Below the pieces are notes generated by a model, which was not told the origin of the DNA, searched no databases, and saw nothing but the letters and a program-made list of their open reading frames with translations. A stretch of DNA of 42,517 bases, from contig JAUWTO010000006.1 in assembly GCA_030614685.1 (NCBI GenBank), positions 1 through 42,517 on the forward strand, given 5' to 3'. Below are positions 3,438 to 22,196 of this stretch, piece by piece; position 1 is the stretch's first letter, and each line of letters begins with the position of its first letter. Position numbers and translations under genes: made by a program. Source of the DNA: Candidatus Aminicenantota bacterium. Its GTDB lineage: Bacteria > Acidobacteriota > Aminicenantia > Aminicenantales > Aminicenantaceae.

Positions 3438-4639
3438 GCTCCGTATTTTTTAAGCTTTCCGCCATGTGCCAGCATCAGGGCCATGGCATGTACAGCAGGG
3501 AAGCGGCCGAGGTATCCCTGGCTGCAGGCCCTCTCTGAGAAGGTCGAGACCAGGTCAGGCTGAGCGGTCTCGGCATGGACCAGGAAGGGATTGGGATGCC
3601 AGGAATGGGCCTTTAGCTGGCAAGGCGTGGAGTGATCAGAGGTGACGACCAGGACATCGGGCCCGAGGGCCGTGATGCGAGGGATGAAGGTATCCGCCCG
3701 TGTGATCGCTTCTGTCTTGGAAGCAAAGTCACCGTCCTCTCCGGAGGAGTCGGTCTTCTTGATGTGTACATAGAAAAAATCGAACTCGGAATAATGCCGT
3801 TCCAGGGTGGAGAACAGGTCGGAGATCTTCGGACCCACCTCGAGCACCTCCATGCCCACCAGCGTGGCCAGTCCCCTGTACATGGGGTAATTTGCGATGG
3901 CCGCGGGCCGGAGCTTGAAGCGCTCTCGCATAGTCGGTATGTCGGGATAGCGGGCGAATCCCCGCAGCAGCACGGTGTTGGCCCTGGCCTGGCCCTGCAG
4001 GATCTCGGTCGCCCTGTCCAGGAAGGCATTGACGAGCGCGGCCGAGTCTCGGGCTTCCGGTTCGAGCGCCTCTGTGTAAGCCCGGGGCTTGTGCTCTTTC
4101 TGGGGGTCCGCGTCGGTGAGGGCGTCCCTCAGGCCAGGGCGTGTGAATTGGACCACGAAGCGGTGCTCCTTTCCGGGATACACACGGATACCGGCGCCCT
4201 CGATGGGAGAGAGGGCCTCGTTCAGCGTGCGGCACAGTTCTTGGTTTTTTTCTGTTGGGATTCGGCCCGCCCGGCGGTCTGTTATGAGACCTTCTTTCAG
4301 GGTGGCGAAGTTTCCTCTTGCCACCAGGTCATCGGGGCCCACGTTGACGTCCACTCCCAGGGCCTCCAGGATTCCCCGACCCAGCCGATAGTGCGTGGGG
4401 TCGTAGCCGAAAAGAGACAGGTGGGACGGGCCACTCCCGGGTGTTATCCCCATGGAGACCGGATCGGTCAGGCCGCAGGCGCCTTCTGAAGCCAGTCGGT
4501 CGAGATGGGGTGTTTGTGCCGTTTCCAGCGGTGTCCGGCCGTCCTGCGGCAGGTCGCCGAGCCCGTCCATGACCAGTAGTACGATCTTGGATTCTGTCTG
4601 GACACACAGGTCAGAGATGATTCTGTCGATTCCGTTCAT
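3434..4639 (-). CDS. apgM: 2,3-bisphosphoglycerate-independent phosphoglycerate mutase, archaeal type
   Basis: The 401-aa enzyme interconverts 3- and 2-phosphoglycerate in glycolysis and gluconeogenesis. It is of the short, archaeal-type (ApgM) alkaline-phosphatase-superfamily form. Visible motifs are VLLVMDGLGD (metal Asp), the nucleophile region TPGSGPSHLSLFGYDP, KKTDSSGEDGDF and TSDHSTPC (metal ligands). The frame is open up to 4810, but family similarity begins at MNGIDRIISD, so ATG 4639-4637 is chosen. A TTGACG-17-TATAGT promoter ends only a few bases before this ATG. It is the first gene of the minus-strand operon and divergent from guaA. Confidence 0.93.
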   Translation of the reverse strand: MNGIDRIISDLCVQTESKIVLLVMDGLGDLPQDGRTPLETAQTPHLDRLASEGACGLTDPVSMGITPGSGPSHLSLFGYDPTHYRLGRGILEALGVDVNVGPDDLVARGNFATLKEGLITDRRAGRIPTEKNQELCRTLNEALSPIEGAGIRVYPGKEHRFVVQFTRPGLRDALTDADPQKEHKPRAYTEALEPEARDSAALVNAFLDRATEILQGQARANTVLLRGFARYPDIPTMRERFKLRPAAIANYPMYRGLATLVGMEVLEVGPKISDLFSTLERHYSEFDFFYVHIKKTDSSGEDGDFASKTEAITRADTFIPRITALGPDVLVVTSDHSTPCQLKAHSWHPNPFLVHAETAQPDLVSTFSERACSQGYLGRFPAVHAMALMLAHGGKLKKYGA

Positions 4640-4648
4640 TTCATGCCC

Positions 4649-4677
4649 ACTATAAGAAATTCCCCGAGTCTCGTCAA
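4649..4677 (-). promoter_or_regulatory. Sigma70-type promoter of apgM operon, predicted near-leaderless
   Basis: On the minus strand, TTGACG (4677-4672) and TATAGT (4654-4649) are separated by 17 bp. The expected transcription start is about 4643-4641, only 2-4 nt from the ATG at 4639. No convincing Shine-Dalgarno could fit in such a leader. The -35 hexamer is the end of a G-rich repeat (see 4672-4723). Confidence 0.6.
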
Positions 4678-4723
4678 GCCAGCCGCCTTCTCTCCACCCC
4701 CACTGTGTATCCCACCCAACCTT
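4672..4723 (-). repeat. G-rich promoter-proximal repeat, copy 1
   Basis: The minus strand carries GGGGTGGAGAGAAGGCGG followed by CTGGCTTGACG, with GGTTGGGTGGG upstream. The core GTGGAGAGAAGGC matches the core GTGGAGAGATGGC found in the C-rich (plus) tract at 22221-22329. In both places TGGCTTG supplies the TTG of a -35 hexamer. Its G-runs could form a two-tetrad quadruplex. Confidence 0.55.
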
Positions 4724-4858
4724 TCGCCACACAGTGAGATAATTCTCTCGACCACTCCTTTTCACCCTCTTCGAGGGGCTAGAAATCCATTTTCTAAGGG
4801 TCACGGTCATGTTTTTGAGAAGGAAAATAGGGGAAAAAACACCAAAAACAACACTTCG

Positions 4859-4887
4859 TTTACATTGCTTGAGGCCTCTGATAAAAT
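4859..4887 (+). promoter_or_regulatory. Sigma70-type promoter of guaA, predicted leaderless
   Basis: TTTACA (4859-4864) and TAAAAT (4882-4887) lie 17 bp apart. The A of the guaA ATG is at 4894, seven bases after the -10 box and so exactly where transcription should begin. No Shine-Dalgarno is present near the start. Confidence 0.65.
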
Positions 4888-4893
4888 CTCTTC

Positions 4894-6426
4894 ATGGATA
4901 AGGTTTACATACTGGATTTCGGCTCTCAGCTCACTCAGTTGATCGCGCGCAAGGTCCGGGAGTTGGGGGCGTATTCAGAGATTTTTTCCTATCAGCTGCC
5001 CGTTTCCAGGCTTAAAAAGGAGCGGCCATCGGCCCTGATCCTCTCAGGTGGACCCCAGAGCGTTTATGATGAGGGGTCTCCGCTCCCGTCTCCAGAGATC
5101 TTCAGCCTGGGGATTCCGATACTGGGGATCTGCTATGGGCTTCAGCTCATGGCCTACCTCCTGGGCGGCAAGGTCAGCCCAAGCGAGAAGCGGGAATATG
5201 GGTTTGCAGCACTCAAGATCGAAGACGGGTCCGGCCTCCTGGCCGGGATTCGGGACCAGAGTCAGGTATGGATGAGCCACGGAGACAAAGTCGAGGCGCT
5301 CCCGCCGGGCTTTGCTGCCACCGGTGTGACCTCCAACTGCGACACGGCCGTGATCGAGAACCGAGAGCAGGGCTTTTTCGGTGTTCAGTTCCATCCCGAG
5401 GTCATCCACACCGATCAGGGGCTCAAGGTCCTCTCCAACTTCCTGTTTGAACAGGCCGGGCTCAAGGCCGACTGGAGCATGGGTTCGTTCGTTGACCGGA
5501 AGGTGGTAGAGATCCGGGACCAGGTCGGGGACGGTCACGTGGTCTGCGGACTGAGCGGCGGGGTCGATTCTCTGGTCGCCTCCATGATCATCAGCCGAGC
5601 CATAGGAGACAAGCTCCACTGCATTTTTGTGGACAACGGCCTGCTGCGTAAGAATCAATACCTGTCCCTGATGGAAAAGTTCAAGGCCAGTTTCTCCTTG
5701 AACGTGACCGGGGTGGATGCATCCGAGCGGTTCCTGGGGAAGCTCCAGGGGGTGACTTCCCCGGAGCGGAAGCGCAAGATCATCGGCCGGGAGTTCATCC
5801 GTATCTTCGAGCAGGAAGCCCAGAGGATCGGTGGCGCGGATTTCCTCGCACAGGGCACCATCTATCCGGATGTGATCGAGAGCAGCCCGGTCAAGGGTCC
5901 CTCTTCCAGCATTAAATCCCACCACAATGTGGGGGGGCTGCCTAAGGGTCTGAAGTTCAAGCTGGTGGAGCCTTTGCGAGAGCTTTTCAAGGATGAGGTC
6001 CGGGTCCTCGGCCTGGAGCTTGGGGTGGACAAGAAATTCATCGCCCAGCATCCCTTTCCGGGCCCGGGTTTGGCGGTGCGGATTGTGGGAGAGGTGACCC
6101 AGGAAAGGCTGCGGATCATCCGTGAGGCCGATGATATCATTCTTCAGGAGGTGGGGGCCGCAGGGCTGTATGATCAGCTCTGGCAGGCCTTCGCGGTCCT
6201 GCTGCCGGTGAGGTCGGTGGGTGTGATGGGTGACCGACGGACCTACCAGCGTGTGGTCGTGGTGCGCCTCATCCAGAGTGTCGACGGGATGACCGCGGAC
6301 TGGTTTCCCGCGGACACCGAACTCCTGTCCCGGATTTCCAACCGCATCGTGAACGAGGTCCTCGGGGTCAACCGCGTGGTGTATGACATCACCTCCAAGC
6401 CGCCCGGCACCATCGAATGGGAATGA
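4894..6426 (+). CDS. guaA: GMP synthase (glutamine-hydrolysing)
   Basis: The 510-aa, two-domain enzyme converts XMP, ATP and glutamine to GMP. The class I glutaminase domain begins MDKVYILDFGSQ and holds the nucleophile Cys80 in GICYGLQLMAYLLGG, with a HPE triad segment near FHPEVIH. The ATP-pyrophosphatase domain has the PP-loop LSGGVDSLVASM. The C-terminal dimerisation domain ends KPPGTIEWE, the usual terminus. Length is normal. The ATG is fixed by the conserved N terminus, and a strong promoter places the transcript start on it. It is the likely first gene of a run through dnaE, coaX and rnr. Confidence 0.97.
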   Translation: MDKVYILDFGSQLTQLIARKVRELGAYSEIFSYQLPVSRLKKERPSALILSGGPQSVYDEGSPLPSPEIFSLGIPILGICYGLQLMAYLLGGKVSPSEKREYGFAALKIEDGSGLLAGIRDQSQVWMSHGDKVEALPPGFAATGVTSNCDTAVIENREQGFFGVQFHPEVIHTDQGLKVLSNFLFEQAGLKADWSMGSFVDRKVVEIRDQVGDGHVVCGLSGGVDSLVASMIISRAIGDKLHCIFVDNGLLRKNQYLSLMEKFKASFSLNVTGVDASERFLGKLQGVTSPERKRKIIGREFIRIFEQEAQRIGGADFLAQGTIYPDVIESSPVKGPSSSIKSHHNVGGLPKGLKFKLVEPLRELFKDEVRVLGLELGVDKKFIAQHPFPGPGLAVRIVGEVTQERLRIIREADDIILQEVGAAGLYDQLWQAFAVLLPVRSVGVMGDRRTYQRVVVVRLIQSVDGMTADWFPADTELLSRISNRIVNEVLGVNRVVYDITSKPPGTIEWE

Positions 6427-17360: not shown

Positions 17361-19583
17361 TTATGCTTCCTCTTTGGCCTCTTTTTTGGGTTTCTTGGCT
17401 TTGCTTTTGGCTTTCTTGCCCTCGGACCCCTTGATCACGGTCTGGTCCTGCTGTTTCTGACTCAGGGCGGATTTCAGCATGTCTCCGAAGAGCCCCTTCA
17501 TAGGCATCTCAGCATGTTTGGTCTTGTATTCTTCCAGCACTTCCTCGGGTGCCGCTCCAAAGTCAACCCCGATATCGTCCTCGGCGCCATCGGACTTGAC
17601 GGCAATGAGGGCTTCCTGTTCGGATTCTTCCAGTTCGATCCGCTCTTCGATGATCTTGCGTTCTCCCTTACGCCTGCGCGGCGCCTTGTCGGATTCGAAC
17701 GCAGGTTTGGTTTTCCGCTTCTTCTTCTTCGGTTTCTCGTCTTTTGGGGGTTTGGCCGGCCCTGCCTGGGGTTTGGCCATTGGCCTGGGCGCGGGCTTGG
17801 GAGCCGCGGCCGGTGCCGGGGGTCTCATGGCGCGGGGCGCCGGCTTAACCGGCGCGGGCTTGGGAGGCTTCGGAGCAACGCGGACTTTTTCCTCCAGTTT
17901 GACGGCCGGGGTCTCGACCTCACCCACCGTGCCGATAGCGGGCATGTCATCGTCCTCCCGGGGCATCACCTGGGCTGTGGCGGTAGCAGCCAGCTCTTCC
18001 TCGAGGATATCGGCCACCTCCTCCTCTTCCGGTTCCACAAACTCCTTGTAATGGTAGAGGCCCTTCTTCTTTTCAGAACGGGTGAATTCCGGCGTGCTGT
18101 TCAAGACCTTTTCCACGTCCGCCAAATTGGTATGCCGGAGCATATCCACCAGATGAAAGGCCCGCTGAAGGTGCAGAGACAGGGTCTCGCCCTCCAGGCC
18201 GAATTTTGTATAGATGAGGACCAGAAGATCCCGCAGATCAAGGCTGGCCCGCACCGGATAGAGGTTTTCCAGTGTTTTCAGCGCTGCCCTGTCTAGGAAG
18301 ATGATCTTGTTGGGCAGCGAGGTGGCGGGAGCCTCTTTGTCTGCCAGGGAAAATCTGTCCTTTTTGGCGTCATAGGAGACATAGGGGACATTCATCCCTT
18401 TCTTGGACCGCTTCAGTGTGAACTGGATGGTGTGGTCTTCGCCTTTTTCAAGTGTGAGGCTGGCTCCTTGTGTGATCGTGTGCTTTTTATATAGATCGCC
18501 CAGGCCTAGGAAAATCCCACGGGTGGGATAAAAATAGGCTGTGTGACGGTCGCCTCTTTCTGTGTCGACAAAATCGTGTTCCCGGGATTTCGAAAGCTCT
18601 CTGACCAGCGGCTTGGGGACGGTCAGGCCTCCGGACAGCACATCCCTCCATGTCAGGTAAACTTTCAGGGGATAATTCTGTGTGGACAGAGGAGGGGCTG
18701 CGGTGGTTTCGGTTGATGCCGGGAGCTTTGCCAGGGGCTTTGCCAGCGGCAGGTCCTTGAGCATCTCCTCCAGGATCTCCTTCAGGAACCATTTTCCCTT
18801 CTCATCCGGAGAGATATAGGTGAAACGCTTCTTGTATCTCTTGTCGAGGGCGGTGTTCAGGCTGATGCAGTGGAGGTCGAAGTCCCCGGCCTTGGGGTTG
18901 GCGCCCATCAGATTCTTGACCAGGTCGGCAGTCGCGGCTGACTTCCGCGTTTTCCGGAGCAGAGCCTCGATCTTCTGGATGACATCGTCTTCGATCGCGA
19001 TCTGTTTTTCTTTCAGCTGGTAGGAATCCTGCCAATGGAAGAAATCCTTGGACTTGGAAAGGGCGGAGCTCAGGTTCTTTCCCAGGGTCCGGAAGTCCCG
19101 TTCAGTCATAGGCAGTTCCGTTAACCGGGGGTCCAATACCTTCTCGAGGATAGCAACAGCCTGGCAGTTGTCCTCTGTGGCGCTGGGCAGGAGGACCTGC
19201 GTCTTGGATTTTTTCATGTATTCGATGTGTTTCCGGAAGGTCCCTCCGCCTGTAAAATCCACCTCCAACATCTCGCAGTTGAAGCTGTCATAGGAGATCT
19301 TGTTGATGACCTTAAGAACTACGGCTCCCTTGAAATGCTCCATGCCCTTGCTGCTGACCAGGAGCTGCTCGTCGTATTCCCTGTAGATGAGGTCGCCCAC
19401 CGCATACTCACAGTTGGAGTCATAGATCTTGACTTCCTGGCTGAGCTGACCTGCATTTTTTCGGTACGCCAGTTTTGTGGCCAGGTTATGCAGTGTAACG
19501 ACGGCATCATCTTTCTGCAGTTCGTCCTGCAGCCAAGCCAGATCTTTGGCGTTAATGATAGTGTTTTCGTTTTCCTTACTCAT
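17361..19583 (-). CDS. Large multidomain protein of unknown function, 740 aa
   Basis: I do not recognise this protein as a whole. Residues 10-135 form a compact N-terminal domain (CEYAVGDLIYREYDEQLL, CEMLEVDFTGGGTF). Residues 197-270 resemble a HARE-type winged helix ending RFTYISPDEKGKWFL. Residues 305-393 look like a beta-barrel, possibly DNA-binding, domain (VYLTWRDVLSGGLTVP, YFYPTRGIFLGLGDLY). Residues 447-515 could be another winged-helix-like unit. The tail (about 516-740) is low complexity: acidic, then Pro/Ala/Lys-rich (570-625), basic (KKKKRKTK, RRRKGERK) and finally Lys/Ala-rich. The layout suggests a nucleic-acid-binding architectural or regulatory protein; this is inference. It has its own promoter (19609-19638). 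Confidence 0.85.
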   Translation of the reverse strand: MSKENENTIINAKDLAWLQDELQKDDAVVTLHNLATKLAYRKNAGQLSQEVKIYDSNCEYAVGDLIYREYDEQLLVSSKGMEHFKGAVVLKVINKISYDSFNCEMLEVDFTGGGTFRKHIEYMKKSKTQVLLPSATEDNCQAVAILEKVLDPRLTELPMTERDFRTLGKNLSSALSKSKDFFHWQDSYQLKEKQIAIEDDVIQKIEALLRKTRKSAATADLVKNLMGANPKAGDFDLHCISLNTALDKRYKKRFTYISPDEKGKWFLKEILEEMLKDLPLAKPLAKLPASTETTAAPPLSTQNYPLKVYLTWRDVLSGGLTVPKPLVRELSKSREHDFVDTERGDRHTAYFYPTRGIFLGLGDLYKKHTITQGASLTLEKGEDHTIQFTLKRSKKGMNVPYVSYDAKKDRFSLADKEAPATSLPNKIIFLDRAALKTLENLYPVRASLDLRDLLVLIYTKFGLEGETLSLHLQRAFHLVDMLRHTNLADVEKVLNSTPEFTRSEKKKGLYHYKEFVEPEEEEVADILEEELAATATAQVMPREDDDMPAIGTVGEVETPAVKLEEKVRVAPKPPKPAPVKPAPRAMRPPAPAAAPKPAPRPMAKPQAGPAKPPKDEKPKKKKRKTKPAFESDKAPRRRKGERKIIEERIELEESEQEALIAVKSDGAEDDIGVDFGAAPEEVLEEYKTKHAEMPMKGLFGDMLKSALSQKQQDQTVIKGSEGKKAKSKAKKPKKEAKEEA

Positions 19584-19608
19584 TGTCTCTCTGATTATTT
19601 TCTAGAAT

Positions 19609-19638
19609 ATAATACCACAATCGCTTTTTGAATATGAA
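19609..19638 (-). promoter_or_regulatory. Promoter of the 740-aa gene
   Basis: TTCATA (19638-19633) and TATTAT (19614-19609) are 18 bp apart on the minus strand. The start near 19602 leaves a leader of about 19 nt with GAGAG close to the ATG. Confidence 0.45.
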
Positions 19639-19685
19639 GCGTGTTTTCGGATTGCTCGTAGGCCGTATACTAGGCAGACGCGGTT

Positions 19686-19895
19686 TTATCCTCTGCTACC
19701 TCCCATCTGCCGCATCCCCAGCTCGAATATCACCCGGGAAAAAGGTGATGGGAGTGGGAATACAAGGGCCAGCGCCTTGCCTGCCTGCCGGCGCCGGAAA
19801 TGTCTCGGCTGGTTCTTGACCTGACAGGTCAGATCCAGCAGGGCATGAGACTCGCAGAGAGTCAGGTCGCAGAGGGAGACAGGCGGTTTTGTCAT
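19686..19895 (-). pseudogene. Truncated N-terminal fragment of an ornithine/aspartate carbamoyltransferase-like gene
   Basis: The 69-aa frame starts at ATG 19895, seven nt after an AGGAG site that overlaps the arcC stop. The text reads as the N terminus of a carbamoyltransferase: DLTLCESHALLDLTCQVK, then AGKALALVF and RVIFELGMRQMGG, matching the usual helix, GKxxALIF strand and FELGMRQLGG helix. The carbamoyl-phosphate motif STRTR is degraded to SPFSR. Translation stops after GGSRG, where about 230 further residues would be expected, and no continuation is seen in any frame before the next promoter. It is probably a decayed gene once cotranscribed with arcC, although a still-translated small peptide is possible. 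Confidence 0.65.
19817..19831. repeat. 15-bp perfect palindrome
   Basis: TGACCTGACAGGTCA is symmetrical around its central A. It lies inside the carbamoyltransferase remnant and could be chance, an operator half-site pair or a relic hairpin. Confidence 0.4.
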
Positions 19896-19905
19896 GGATT
19901 GTCTC

Positions 19906-20850
19906 CTAAGCCACGATCTTGGTCCCTGAGCGATCGATCAGGGCTGCCTTGAAATAGTTGGCCGACGTGATGATGACTTCTTTGCCTCCGGCCCGGATGT
20001 ATTCGATCGCGGCCAGAATCTTGGGGCCCATGGAGCCTGGGGGAAAATGCCCCGCGTCGTAGTATGCCTGGGCCTCATCCACTGTGATTCGATCGAGAGG
20101 GGTCTCATCCGGTGTTCCGAAGTTCAGACTAACCTGGTGTACATTGGTCAGGATGATGAATAGTTCCGCCTCTGCCTCGCGGGCGATCAGGCCGGCAGCA
20201 TAGTCTTTGTCGATGACCGCCTCCACGCCCTCGAAGAGGCCCCGTCCGTTGATGACAACGGGGATACCGCCTCCGCCGGCCGCGATGACGATCCGGCCCT
20301 GGTGTACCAGGTCGCGCAGGATCCGCTTGGGGACCACATCGATGGGCCTGGGCGAGGGGACAACCTGTCGGAATCCGCGTCCGGCATCCTCGATCATGGT
20401 CCAGTTTTTTTCACGTATGAGCATCTGGGCGCGGTACTGGGAATAGAATGGACCGATGGGTTTGGACGGATTTTCAAAGGCCGGATCTTCCTTGTCCACC
20501 ACGACCTGGGTGACCAGGGTGGCGACCTCCTTGTCCAGCGAGCTCTTGCGCAGTTCGTTGATGAGGGCCTTTTCCAGCATAAATCCAATGCTGCCTTCTG
20601 TCATGGCATCACAGACCTCGAGGCTGAAAGGCGGGATCTTATTGATGGCCTCCTCCATCTGGATGAGCAGGTTCCCGACCTGGGGCCCGTTTCCGTGGAC
20701 AATGATGAGGTCGAATCCCTTCTTCACGATATGGATCATGAGCCGGGCCGCCTTCCGGGCATTATTCATCTGCTCGGTCTGCAGTCCTTTTTGCTTAGCG
20801 GGCAGAATGGCATTCCCCCCGAAAGCGATCAGCGCGATTTTCCGTTTCAT
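19906..20850 (-). CDS. arcC: Carbamate kinase
   Basis: The 314-aa enzyme of the amino acid kinase fold interconverts carbamoyl phosphate plus ADP with ATP plus carbamate. The N terminus MKRKIALIAFGGNAIL, the IVHGNGPQVGNLL motif, AAGGGGIPVV and VIDKDYAAGLIA are characteristic. The frame is open further upstream, but ATG 20850-20848 shares one base with the stop of the preceding gene (TGATG), and similarity starts there. Just downstream is a carbamoyltransferase stump, so a fermentative carbamoyl-phosphate pathway (arginine, citrulline, agmatine or purine-derived) probably operated here. In its present form the enzyme must get carbamoyl phosphate from elsewhere. Confidence 0.94.
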   Translation of the reverse strand: MKRKIALIAFGGNAILPAKQKGLQTEQMNNARKAARLMIHIVKKGFDLIIVHGNGPQVGNLLIQMEEAINKIPPFSLEVCDAMTEGSIGFMLEKALINELRKSSLDKEVATLVTQVVVDKEDPAFENPSKPIGPFYSQYRAQMLIREKNWTMIEDAGRGFRQVVPSPRPIDVVPKRILRDLVHQGRIVIAAGGGGIPVVINGRGLFEGVEAVIDKDYAAGLIAREAEAELFIILTNVHQVSLNFGTPDETPLDRITVDEAQAYYDAGHFPPGSMGPKILAAIEYIRAGGKEVIITSANYFKAALIDRSGTKIVA

Positions 20851-22154
20851 CAGAAGTCCTTGAGGATCTCCTTGAGGTCCGGACTCCCGATCTCTTCCAG
20901 ATCGTAGTTGACACGGAGGATGCGTTTGTTGGTCTTTATGAGGCGGCCCAGGTCGATGGGCGTGCCGCTGACTACCAGGTCGCACTCAACCCGGTCTATG
21001 GTCTCCGCCAGTTCGGCCATCTGCTCGTTCCCGTACCCCATGGCAGGCAGGACCCGGTCCAGGTGATTGTATTTTTCGAACGTGGCCTTGATGCTGCCCA
21101 CGGCATAGGGCCGGGGATCCACGATGTGTGCCGCGCCGTATTTCTCTGCGGCGACGATCCCGGCGCCGTATTTCATCTCCCCATGGGTCAGGGTCGGCCC
21201 GTCTTCCACAACGAGCACGGTCTTGCCTGCGATCTCATCCCCTTCGGGAACGTGTATGGCGGAGTTTGCCTCCACCACCCTCGCATCCGGATTGAACTGC
21301 TGGATGTTGGCCTTGACCTGCTCTACGCCCTCCGCAGGGGCCGTGTCCATCTTGTTGATGATCAGCACGTCGGCGCGCCTGAAGTTCGTCTCCCCGGGGT
21401 AGTACAGGAGTTCGTGACCGGGTCGGTGGGGATCGACGACAACGATCTCGAGATCGGACCGGTAGAAGGGGATATCGTTGTTGCCGCCGTCCCAGAGGAT
21501 GACATCGGCTTCCTGCTCCGCTTGCTCGAGGATGGCGCCGTAATCCACGCCGGCGTAAACGATGATGCCGTTCTGGATATGCGGCTCATACTCTTCCATC
21601 TCCTCGATGGTGCACTCGTGCTTGATCATGTCCTCATAGGTTGCAAAACGCTGCACCGCCTGTCGGGCCAGATCTCCGTAGGGCATGGGATGCCGGATGG
21701 CTGCCACCCGCCGCCCCATATCCTTGAGGAGCATGGCGATCTTGCGTGTGGTCTGGCTCTTGCCGCAGCCGGTGCGTACGGCGCACACTGAAACCAGCGG
21801 ACGGCTGCTCTTGATCATGGTCTCATCCGGACCCAACAGGACGAAGCCGGCACCGGCCGCCTGCACCTGCGAGGCCTTGTGCATGACATATTCGTGAGGA
21901 GTATCGCTGTAGGAGAAAAAAACCTGTTCGACCTCCTTGTCTCGGATCAGACGGGAGAGGTCTTCTTCGGCGAATATGGGGATCCCATCAGGATAGAGCT
22001 CGCCGGCCAGGACGGCTGGGTATCGGCGACCTTCGATATCCGGGATCTGCGTGGCGGTAAAGGCGACGACGCGGTATTGTGGATTGTTGCGAAAATATAC
22101 GTTGAAGTTATGGAAGTCTCTGCCGGCAGCGCCCATGATGAGGGCATTTTTCAT
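20850..22154 (-). CDS. COG2403-type P-loop GTPase (cyclic 2,3-diphosphoglycerate synthetase-like)
   Basis: The 434-aa protein has a Rossmann-like N-terminal half (ALIMGAAGRDFHNFNVYFR) and a P-loop domain (VCAVRTGCGKSQTTRK) with ILWDGGNND and a LIINKMDT motif. This layout is that of the archaeal cyclic 2,3-diphosphoglycerate synthetase family and its bacterial homologues. Bacteria generally lack the archaeal thermoprotectant, so the bacterial role is unknown. Tight coupling to arcC suggests a link to carbamoyl-phosphate or nucleotide catabolism. Of two nearby ATGs, 22154 is preferred because AGGAG is seven nt upstream of it and only one nt from 22160. Confidence 0.85.
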   Translation of the reverse strand: MKNALIMGAAGRDFHNFNVYFRNNPQYRVVAFTATQIPDIEGRRYPAVLAGELYPDGIPIFAEEDLSRLIRDKEVEQVFFSYSDTPHEYVMHKASQVQAAGAGFVLLGPDETMIKSSRPLVSVCAVRTGCGKSQTTRKIAMLLKDMGRRVAAIRHPMPYGDLARQAVQRFATYEDMIKHECTIEEMEEYEPHIQNGIIVYAGVDYGAILEQAEQEADVILWDGGNNDIPFYRSDLEIVVVDPHRPGHELLYYPGETNFRRADVLIINKMDTAPAEGVEQVKANIQQFNPDARVVEANSAIHVPEGDEIAGKTVLVVEDGPTLTHGEMKYGAGIVAAEKYGAAHIVDPRPYAVGSIKATFEKYNHLDRVLPAMGYGNEQMAELAETIDRVECDLVVSGTPIDLGRLIKTNKRILRVNYDLEEIGSPDLKEILKDF

Positions 22155-22196
22155 TGTCATGCTCCTTTTTGTCTAAACTCCTCAAAAAAAAGAATT

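Follow-up and report, generated by a model that had tools for sequence, protein, structure and literature searches.

The motifs SxRT, HPxQ and HxLP have been described as characteristic of all known transcarbamylases, and the inactive dihydroorotase partner of some aspartate transcarbamylases serves as an example of a pseudoenzyme (review PMC4581275). In the clade described below, in contrast to the dihydroorotase case, the transcarbamylase itself would be the dead protein; like pseudoenzymes in general, it appears to keep its fold and to remain under purifying selection after the loss of catalytic residues. Its direct homologue is the ArgF-type ornithine carbamoyltransferase (OTC; TIGR00658 / PRK00779; PF02729 and PF00185). 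The ArcB/ArgI-type OTC (PRK04284 family) belongs to the same enzyme class but forms a separate OTC lineage, about 40% identical and encoded elsewhere in the genomes concerned, and is not a copy of the decayed gene. In the open-access literature we found no described pseudo-transcarbamylase and no precedent for the Aminicenantes OTC, which does not prove that there is none.

The window is the whole 42,517-nt stretch of DNA that was analysed, from contig JAUWTO010000006.1 of a Candidatus Aminicenantota draft genome (GCA_030614685.1). It was compared with related loci in a sample of 38 genomes from its GTDB family and beyond.

Results

All features discussed here lie on the minus strand of the window. 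The first gene of the conserved cluster, p436 (20850..22160), encodes a P-loop protein with weak similarity to cyclic 2,3-diphosphoglycerate synthetase. The carbamate kinase gene arcC (19906..20853) is intact, scoring 370.9 bits against TIGR00746 (equivalog cut-off 358.25), and is under purifying selection (dN/dS 0.12 against the sister species). Farther along, p740 (17361..19583) encodes a 740-aa protein of an unassigned family that is present throughout the sampled Aminicenantes and has no match in Pfam, NCBIfam or PDB; it has a conserved N-terminal region and a C-terminal part rich in lysine and proline. Searching 84,980 species genomes for this family gave 80 loci, with titles that are nearly all Candidatus Aminicenantes, Candidatus Saccharicenans or Acidobacteriota.

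Most of the 38 family genomes have a close arcC, and the order p436-arcC-OTC-p740 is conserved. Relatives carry a full carbamoyltransferase between arcC and the 740-aa gene, and an intact relative copy at the locus exceeds NCBIfam cut-offs (385 and 421 bits). Paralogues of p436 adjoin ArcB-type OTC genes (L041, L047) or a second arcC (L085), and p436 seems to travel with carbamoyl-phosphate metabolism. In the genus of G013, G014 and G015 (L080, L081 and L082, respectively), the p436 beside arcC is a more diverged copy (about 60% identical) and lies on the opposite strand. At L040 (G005), a second carbamate kinase (about 45% identical) adjoins an aspartate-carbamoyltransferase-like gene.

Directly after arcC, the window has a 69-aa frame with an ATG start (19686..19895) that corresponds to the first ~66 residues of an ArgF-type OTC or pseudo-OTC. 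The original prediction, made from the sequence without database searches, read it as the N-terminal stump of an ornithine-type carbamoyltransferase, and this identification holds. PF02729 (carbamoyl-P binding domain) matches residues 6-67 with E = 1.9e-5 and 25.2 bits, a score that stays below the curated cut-off of 29.9 because the frame is a fragment. A phmmer search of the PDB returned carbamoyltransferases only, the best being OTCs (E from 7.6e-4), and the first 67 residues are 55% identical to the full-length gene at the same locus in the sister species. The predicted ribosome-binding site was also confirmed, as a Shine-Dalgarno-like TAGGAG that overlaps the arcC stop. The SxRT carbamoyl-phosphate motif is absent from the window, where the SxRTR site reads SPFSR (QHLSR in the sister species), and both HPxQ and HxLP are deleted.

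We consider it very improbable that the 69-aa frame is a functional small protein. Conservation in several species would point that way, but a single genome was found to have the frame ending at this stop, and most of the domain is missing from the fragment. The good ribosome-binding site would suit such a protein, as would a dN/dS of 0.35 (0.17-0.66) against the N terminus of the sister's gene, although this value mixes the sister's full-length constraint with the time before the deletion. The frame is probably a relic without function.

The other end of the same gene survives as well. At 19595..19657 lie the last ~20 OTC codons, EQSENTLHIQKAIVVLYSRK followed by a stop, out of frame with the stump; over 95 nt that include the p740 start, this region and the sister's DNA are 83% identical. 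The original prediction missed this remnant and had the deletion join the stump to the promoter of p740. The deletion does end beside a plausible promoter, but by the alignment to the sister it is internal, with ~225 codons gone and the first ~66 and last ~20 left, so that only the two ends of an ArgF-type OTC gene are kept in the window. Between them is a 41-nt junction (19658..19698) in which similarity to the sister gene is undetectable, the best local score being equalled by 52-80% of shuffles. We rejected an alignment that extended the N-terminal similarity beyond the stump by way of a 17-nt deletion, since the junction scores no better than shuffles.

The genome is a 397-contig draft with some duplication (argGH occurs twice), from which a chimeric assembly could have produced an apparent deletion. 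This is extremely improbable, because the junction carries 41 nt of unalignable sequence, the remnant is diverged and frame-shifted as expected of an aged deletion, and the same gene was lost in two other genomes. The stump and the C-terminal remnant are of the same kind as ordinary bacterial pseudogene remnants from internal deletion. Unlike those, three independent deletions here keep the same downstream promoter-like element.

The carbamoyltransferase could be aligned in 78 loci, with all motifs present in 71, one copy truncated and six full-length but degenerate. The six are L087 (from the window's genus), L089, L091, L093, L099 and L111, and a seventh degenerate copy, in G015, runs off the end of its contig. 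A tree built from arcC, p740 and p436, with the OTC left out, places the ten genomes with a degenerate or lost OTC, the window's included, in one clade (SH-aLRT 97); seven of them keep an open frame. All three motifs are broken in this clade, with replacements that differ by lineage. The SxRT site reads QHLSR in the sister and SSIPG/SSITG, YFHPN, YFLTQ or SMPEY in other members, the HPxQ site reads SPCQ, QPCQ or HPCR, and the HxLP site reads HSQP, NYLP, FSIP, TSMF or YTDP. Two genera have also lost most of the SMG/240s region. Catalysis needs SLRTR at the site where the sister reads QHLSR. Among positions invariant in intact copies, the clade keeps 15/56 active-site cells and 194/356 others, counts in which the cells are not independent and for which the list of active-site positions is the one generally given for OTC.

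The fold appears to have outlasted the active site. Two clade proteins score 242 and 202 bits against NCBIfam, below the OTC equivalog cut-off of 280.85, and these two tested proteins differ from ArgF-type OTC in having none of the three motifs; 5/5 tested proteins match PF02729 and PF00185 above cut-off. AlphaFold2 predicts the OTC fold for two clade proteins (pTM 0.89 and 0.86), and the best PDB neighbours of the predicted structures, which resemble those of ArgF-type enzymes, are OTCs and a related transcarbamylase (TM about 0.75-0.95). On the combination of a predicted two-domain OTC fold and a profile match, the clade proteins belong to the transcarbamylase family by fold and descent. The loss of motifs is indirect evidence on function, and points to the clade OTC most likely being a pseudoenzyme that has lost catalysis.

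In the same tree, the window's genome (G000) is sister to G019, G016 is sister to this pair, and G001 is sister to G012. The full-length gene is kept in G019 and G012, and because of these positions the losses in G000, G001 and G016 are independent. At L101 only the 3' end of the OTC is kept. At the G016 locus (L088), about 35 nt resembling the OTC 3' end are left, with the promoter-like element. The interval from thrS to p740 (3600-4980) there has lost p436, arcC and the OTC alike, and G016 holds other, more distant copies of arcC and p436 elsewhere (G016:C299). The degenerate state itself has a single origin, which leaves an independent-pairs test without power.

The degenerate genes of the sister and the remaining clade members make it most likely that catalysis had already gone when the deletion occurred. 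This bears on the central claim of the original prediction, a recent, single-step loss of the working catalytic partner of arcC. The N-terminal stump does exist where described, behind arcC and with its ribosome-binding site, and relatives outside the clade do have a working-looking OTC at the locus. However, the sister species and every other clade member that still has the gene carry degenerate versions, and the non-catalytic SPFSR of the stump sits at the QHLSR site of the sister. We regard a single-step loss as improbable and do not uphold the claim. SPFSR is indeed present where STRTR was said to have decayed, but it probably descends from the pseudoenzyme stage rather than from new decay, and the deleted gene was probably a pseudoenzyme and not the working partner of arcC.

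Between species that both have the degenerate gene, dN/dS is 0.31-0.36 in a three-species genus and 0.15 in a two-species genus, where dS is near saturation. These values are higher than that of arcC; their bootstraps never reach 1, and the upper confidence limits are at most 0.64. Neutral simulation to 47% identity produced 7-8 stops, with P(no stop) <= 0.0005. The low dN/dS, and the absence from the real frames of the stops seen in simulation, therefore indicate that the protein was still constrained after loss of the active site. Open frames and purifying selection despite the apparent catalytic loss were found in clade proteins of two genera.

In all measured loci but one, the spacing of the OTC stop and the p740 start ranges from an 8-nt overlap to a 14-nt gap, which offers a simpler reason for the open frame. 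If ribosomes had to reach the abutting p740 start by translational coupling, an unbroken frame would be needed even for a functionless protein, and the lack of stops would be accounted for. Such coupling does not explain the low dN/dS, however, since it predicts values near 1 rather than 0.15-0.36, and three genomes have lost the frame yet retain p740. We consider it an unlikely explanation overall. Purifying selection and an intact predicted fold would also be compatible with carbamoyltransferases that have taken up a new substrate or mechanism. This is improbable, given that the three motifs said to characterise every known transcarbamylase (PMC4581275) are broken in every lineage and replaced differently each time, that no new motif is held in common, and that little of the SMG/240s region is left in two genera. 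As to what a constrained pseudoenzyme would do, we tentatively suggest, at somewhat less than even odds, that the dead OTC still does non-catalytic work within the carbamate kinase cluster and is kept for it, perhaps by scaffolding or regulating ArcC or the replacement OTC.

The ArcB/ArgI-type OTC is the probable functional replacement in the 8/10 clade genomes that encode it, compared with its presence in 3/26 family genomes with an intact ArgF-type gene (Fisher p 2e-4). Across the class (142 genomes), the two OTC types nearly exclude each other: an intact ArgF-type gene occurs in 3/47 ArcB-positive and 86/95 ArcB-negative genomes (p 5e-24, relatedness ignored; counts made by hand from listings, with one of the 86 a fragment at a contig end). 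This exclusion supports displacement of the ArgF-type by the ArcB-type, although the pattern is not phylogenetically independent, the degenerate state in the clade being one event. A tree of the ArcB-type OTC did not resolve whether there was a single gain in the clade or when the gene arrived. We consider redundancy the likely cause of OTC decay in the clade. Three genomes (G004, G005 and G024) carry both an intact ArgF-type OTC at the arcC locus and an ArcB-type OTC, which means that redundancy does not always end in decay; these may be at an early stage of displacement.

The original prediction raised the matter of an intact copy elsewhere, and the answer is divided. The sister genome does encode an ArcB-type OTC elsewhere, but in the window's own genome (83% complete) no intact OTC was detected, and besides the stump only PyrB was found. 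The gene neighbouring the sister's ArcB was looked for in the window's genome and not found either, which could reflect an assembly gap; redundancy in that genome is deduced from the sister species. Among ten family genomes searched, argG was found only in the window's, its sister and G008, with strong argH matches in the same three; no canonical arcA scored above cut-off. In the window's draft genome argG-argH occurs twice (contigs C99 and C37 of G000), one copy being cut at a contig end, possibly reflecting a strain mixture or a real duplication.

The surviving last ~20 OTC codons overlap an extended -10 promoter-like element, TTCATA-N18-TATTAT with TG before the -10 (19609..19638), a consensus match 25 nt upstream of p740. 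The element is kept in all three independent deletions of the clade and can be recognised in every clade member whose sequence covers the site, with a weaker -35 in G001; in G016, its region is the only recognisable piece of the OTC. The strict pattern occurs in 14/31 family loci and 7.4% of control windows, and at loci without a deletion the element overlaps coding sequence. Third-position GC of the sister OTC is 0.74 over the gene body but only 0.20 at the 3' end. From these features of the DNA we infer that the element may be a sigma-70-type promoter of p740, and that deletions may have been tolerated only upstream of it.

Discussion

We think it likely that the stump in the window is the last stage of a stepwise loss of OTC, through redundancy, active-site decay, a constrained pseudoenzyme and finally an internal deletion that spared a putative p740 promoter. 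In this scenario, the p436-arcC-OTC-p740 cluster of the clade ancestor would have included an active ArgF-type OTC that supplied ArcC with carbamoyl phosphate. The cluster OTC would then have become redundant through an ArcB/ArgI-type OTC encoded at another site, and constraint on the active site of the cluster OTC would have been lost. In the seven sampled clade genomes where it persists, the OTC has an open frame with broken catalytic motifs, and selection on it appears in the two genera where it is measurable. Three lineages removed the gene, in the window by the internal deletion of ~225 codons, and the 3' end may have been kept because it carries the putative promoter and the start region of p740.

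As a relic the stump is nothing unusual; the interest lies in the clade-wide pseudo-OTC and in the element common to the independent deletions. An ordinary-looking window opens onto a clade-wide case in which an enzyme can be traced through active copies, broken-site frames under selection, and deletions. The element kept by independent deletions suggests that, in bacteria for which metagenomes are almost the only source, comparing gene losses can point to a hidden promoter inside a neighbouring gene. Transcarbamylases are much studied and have been described as always having the three motifs, and a conserved group that lacks all three would make non-catalytic roles of this family testable.
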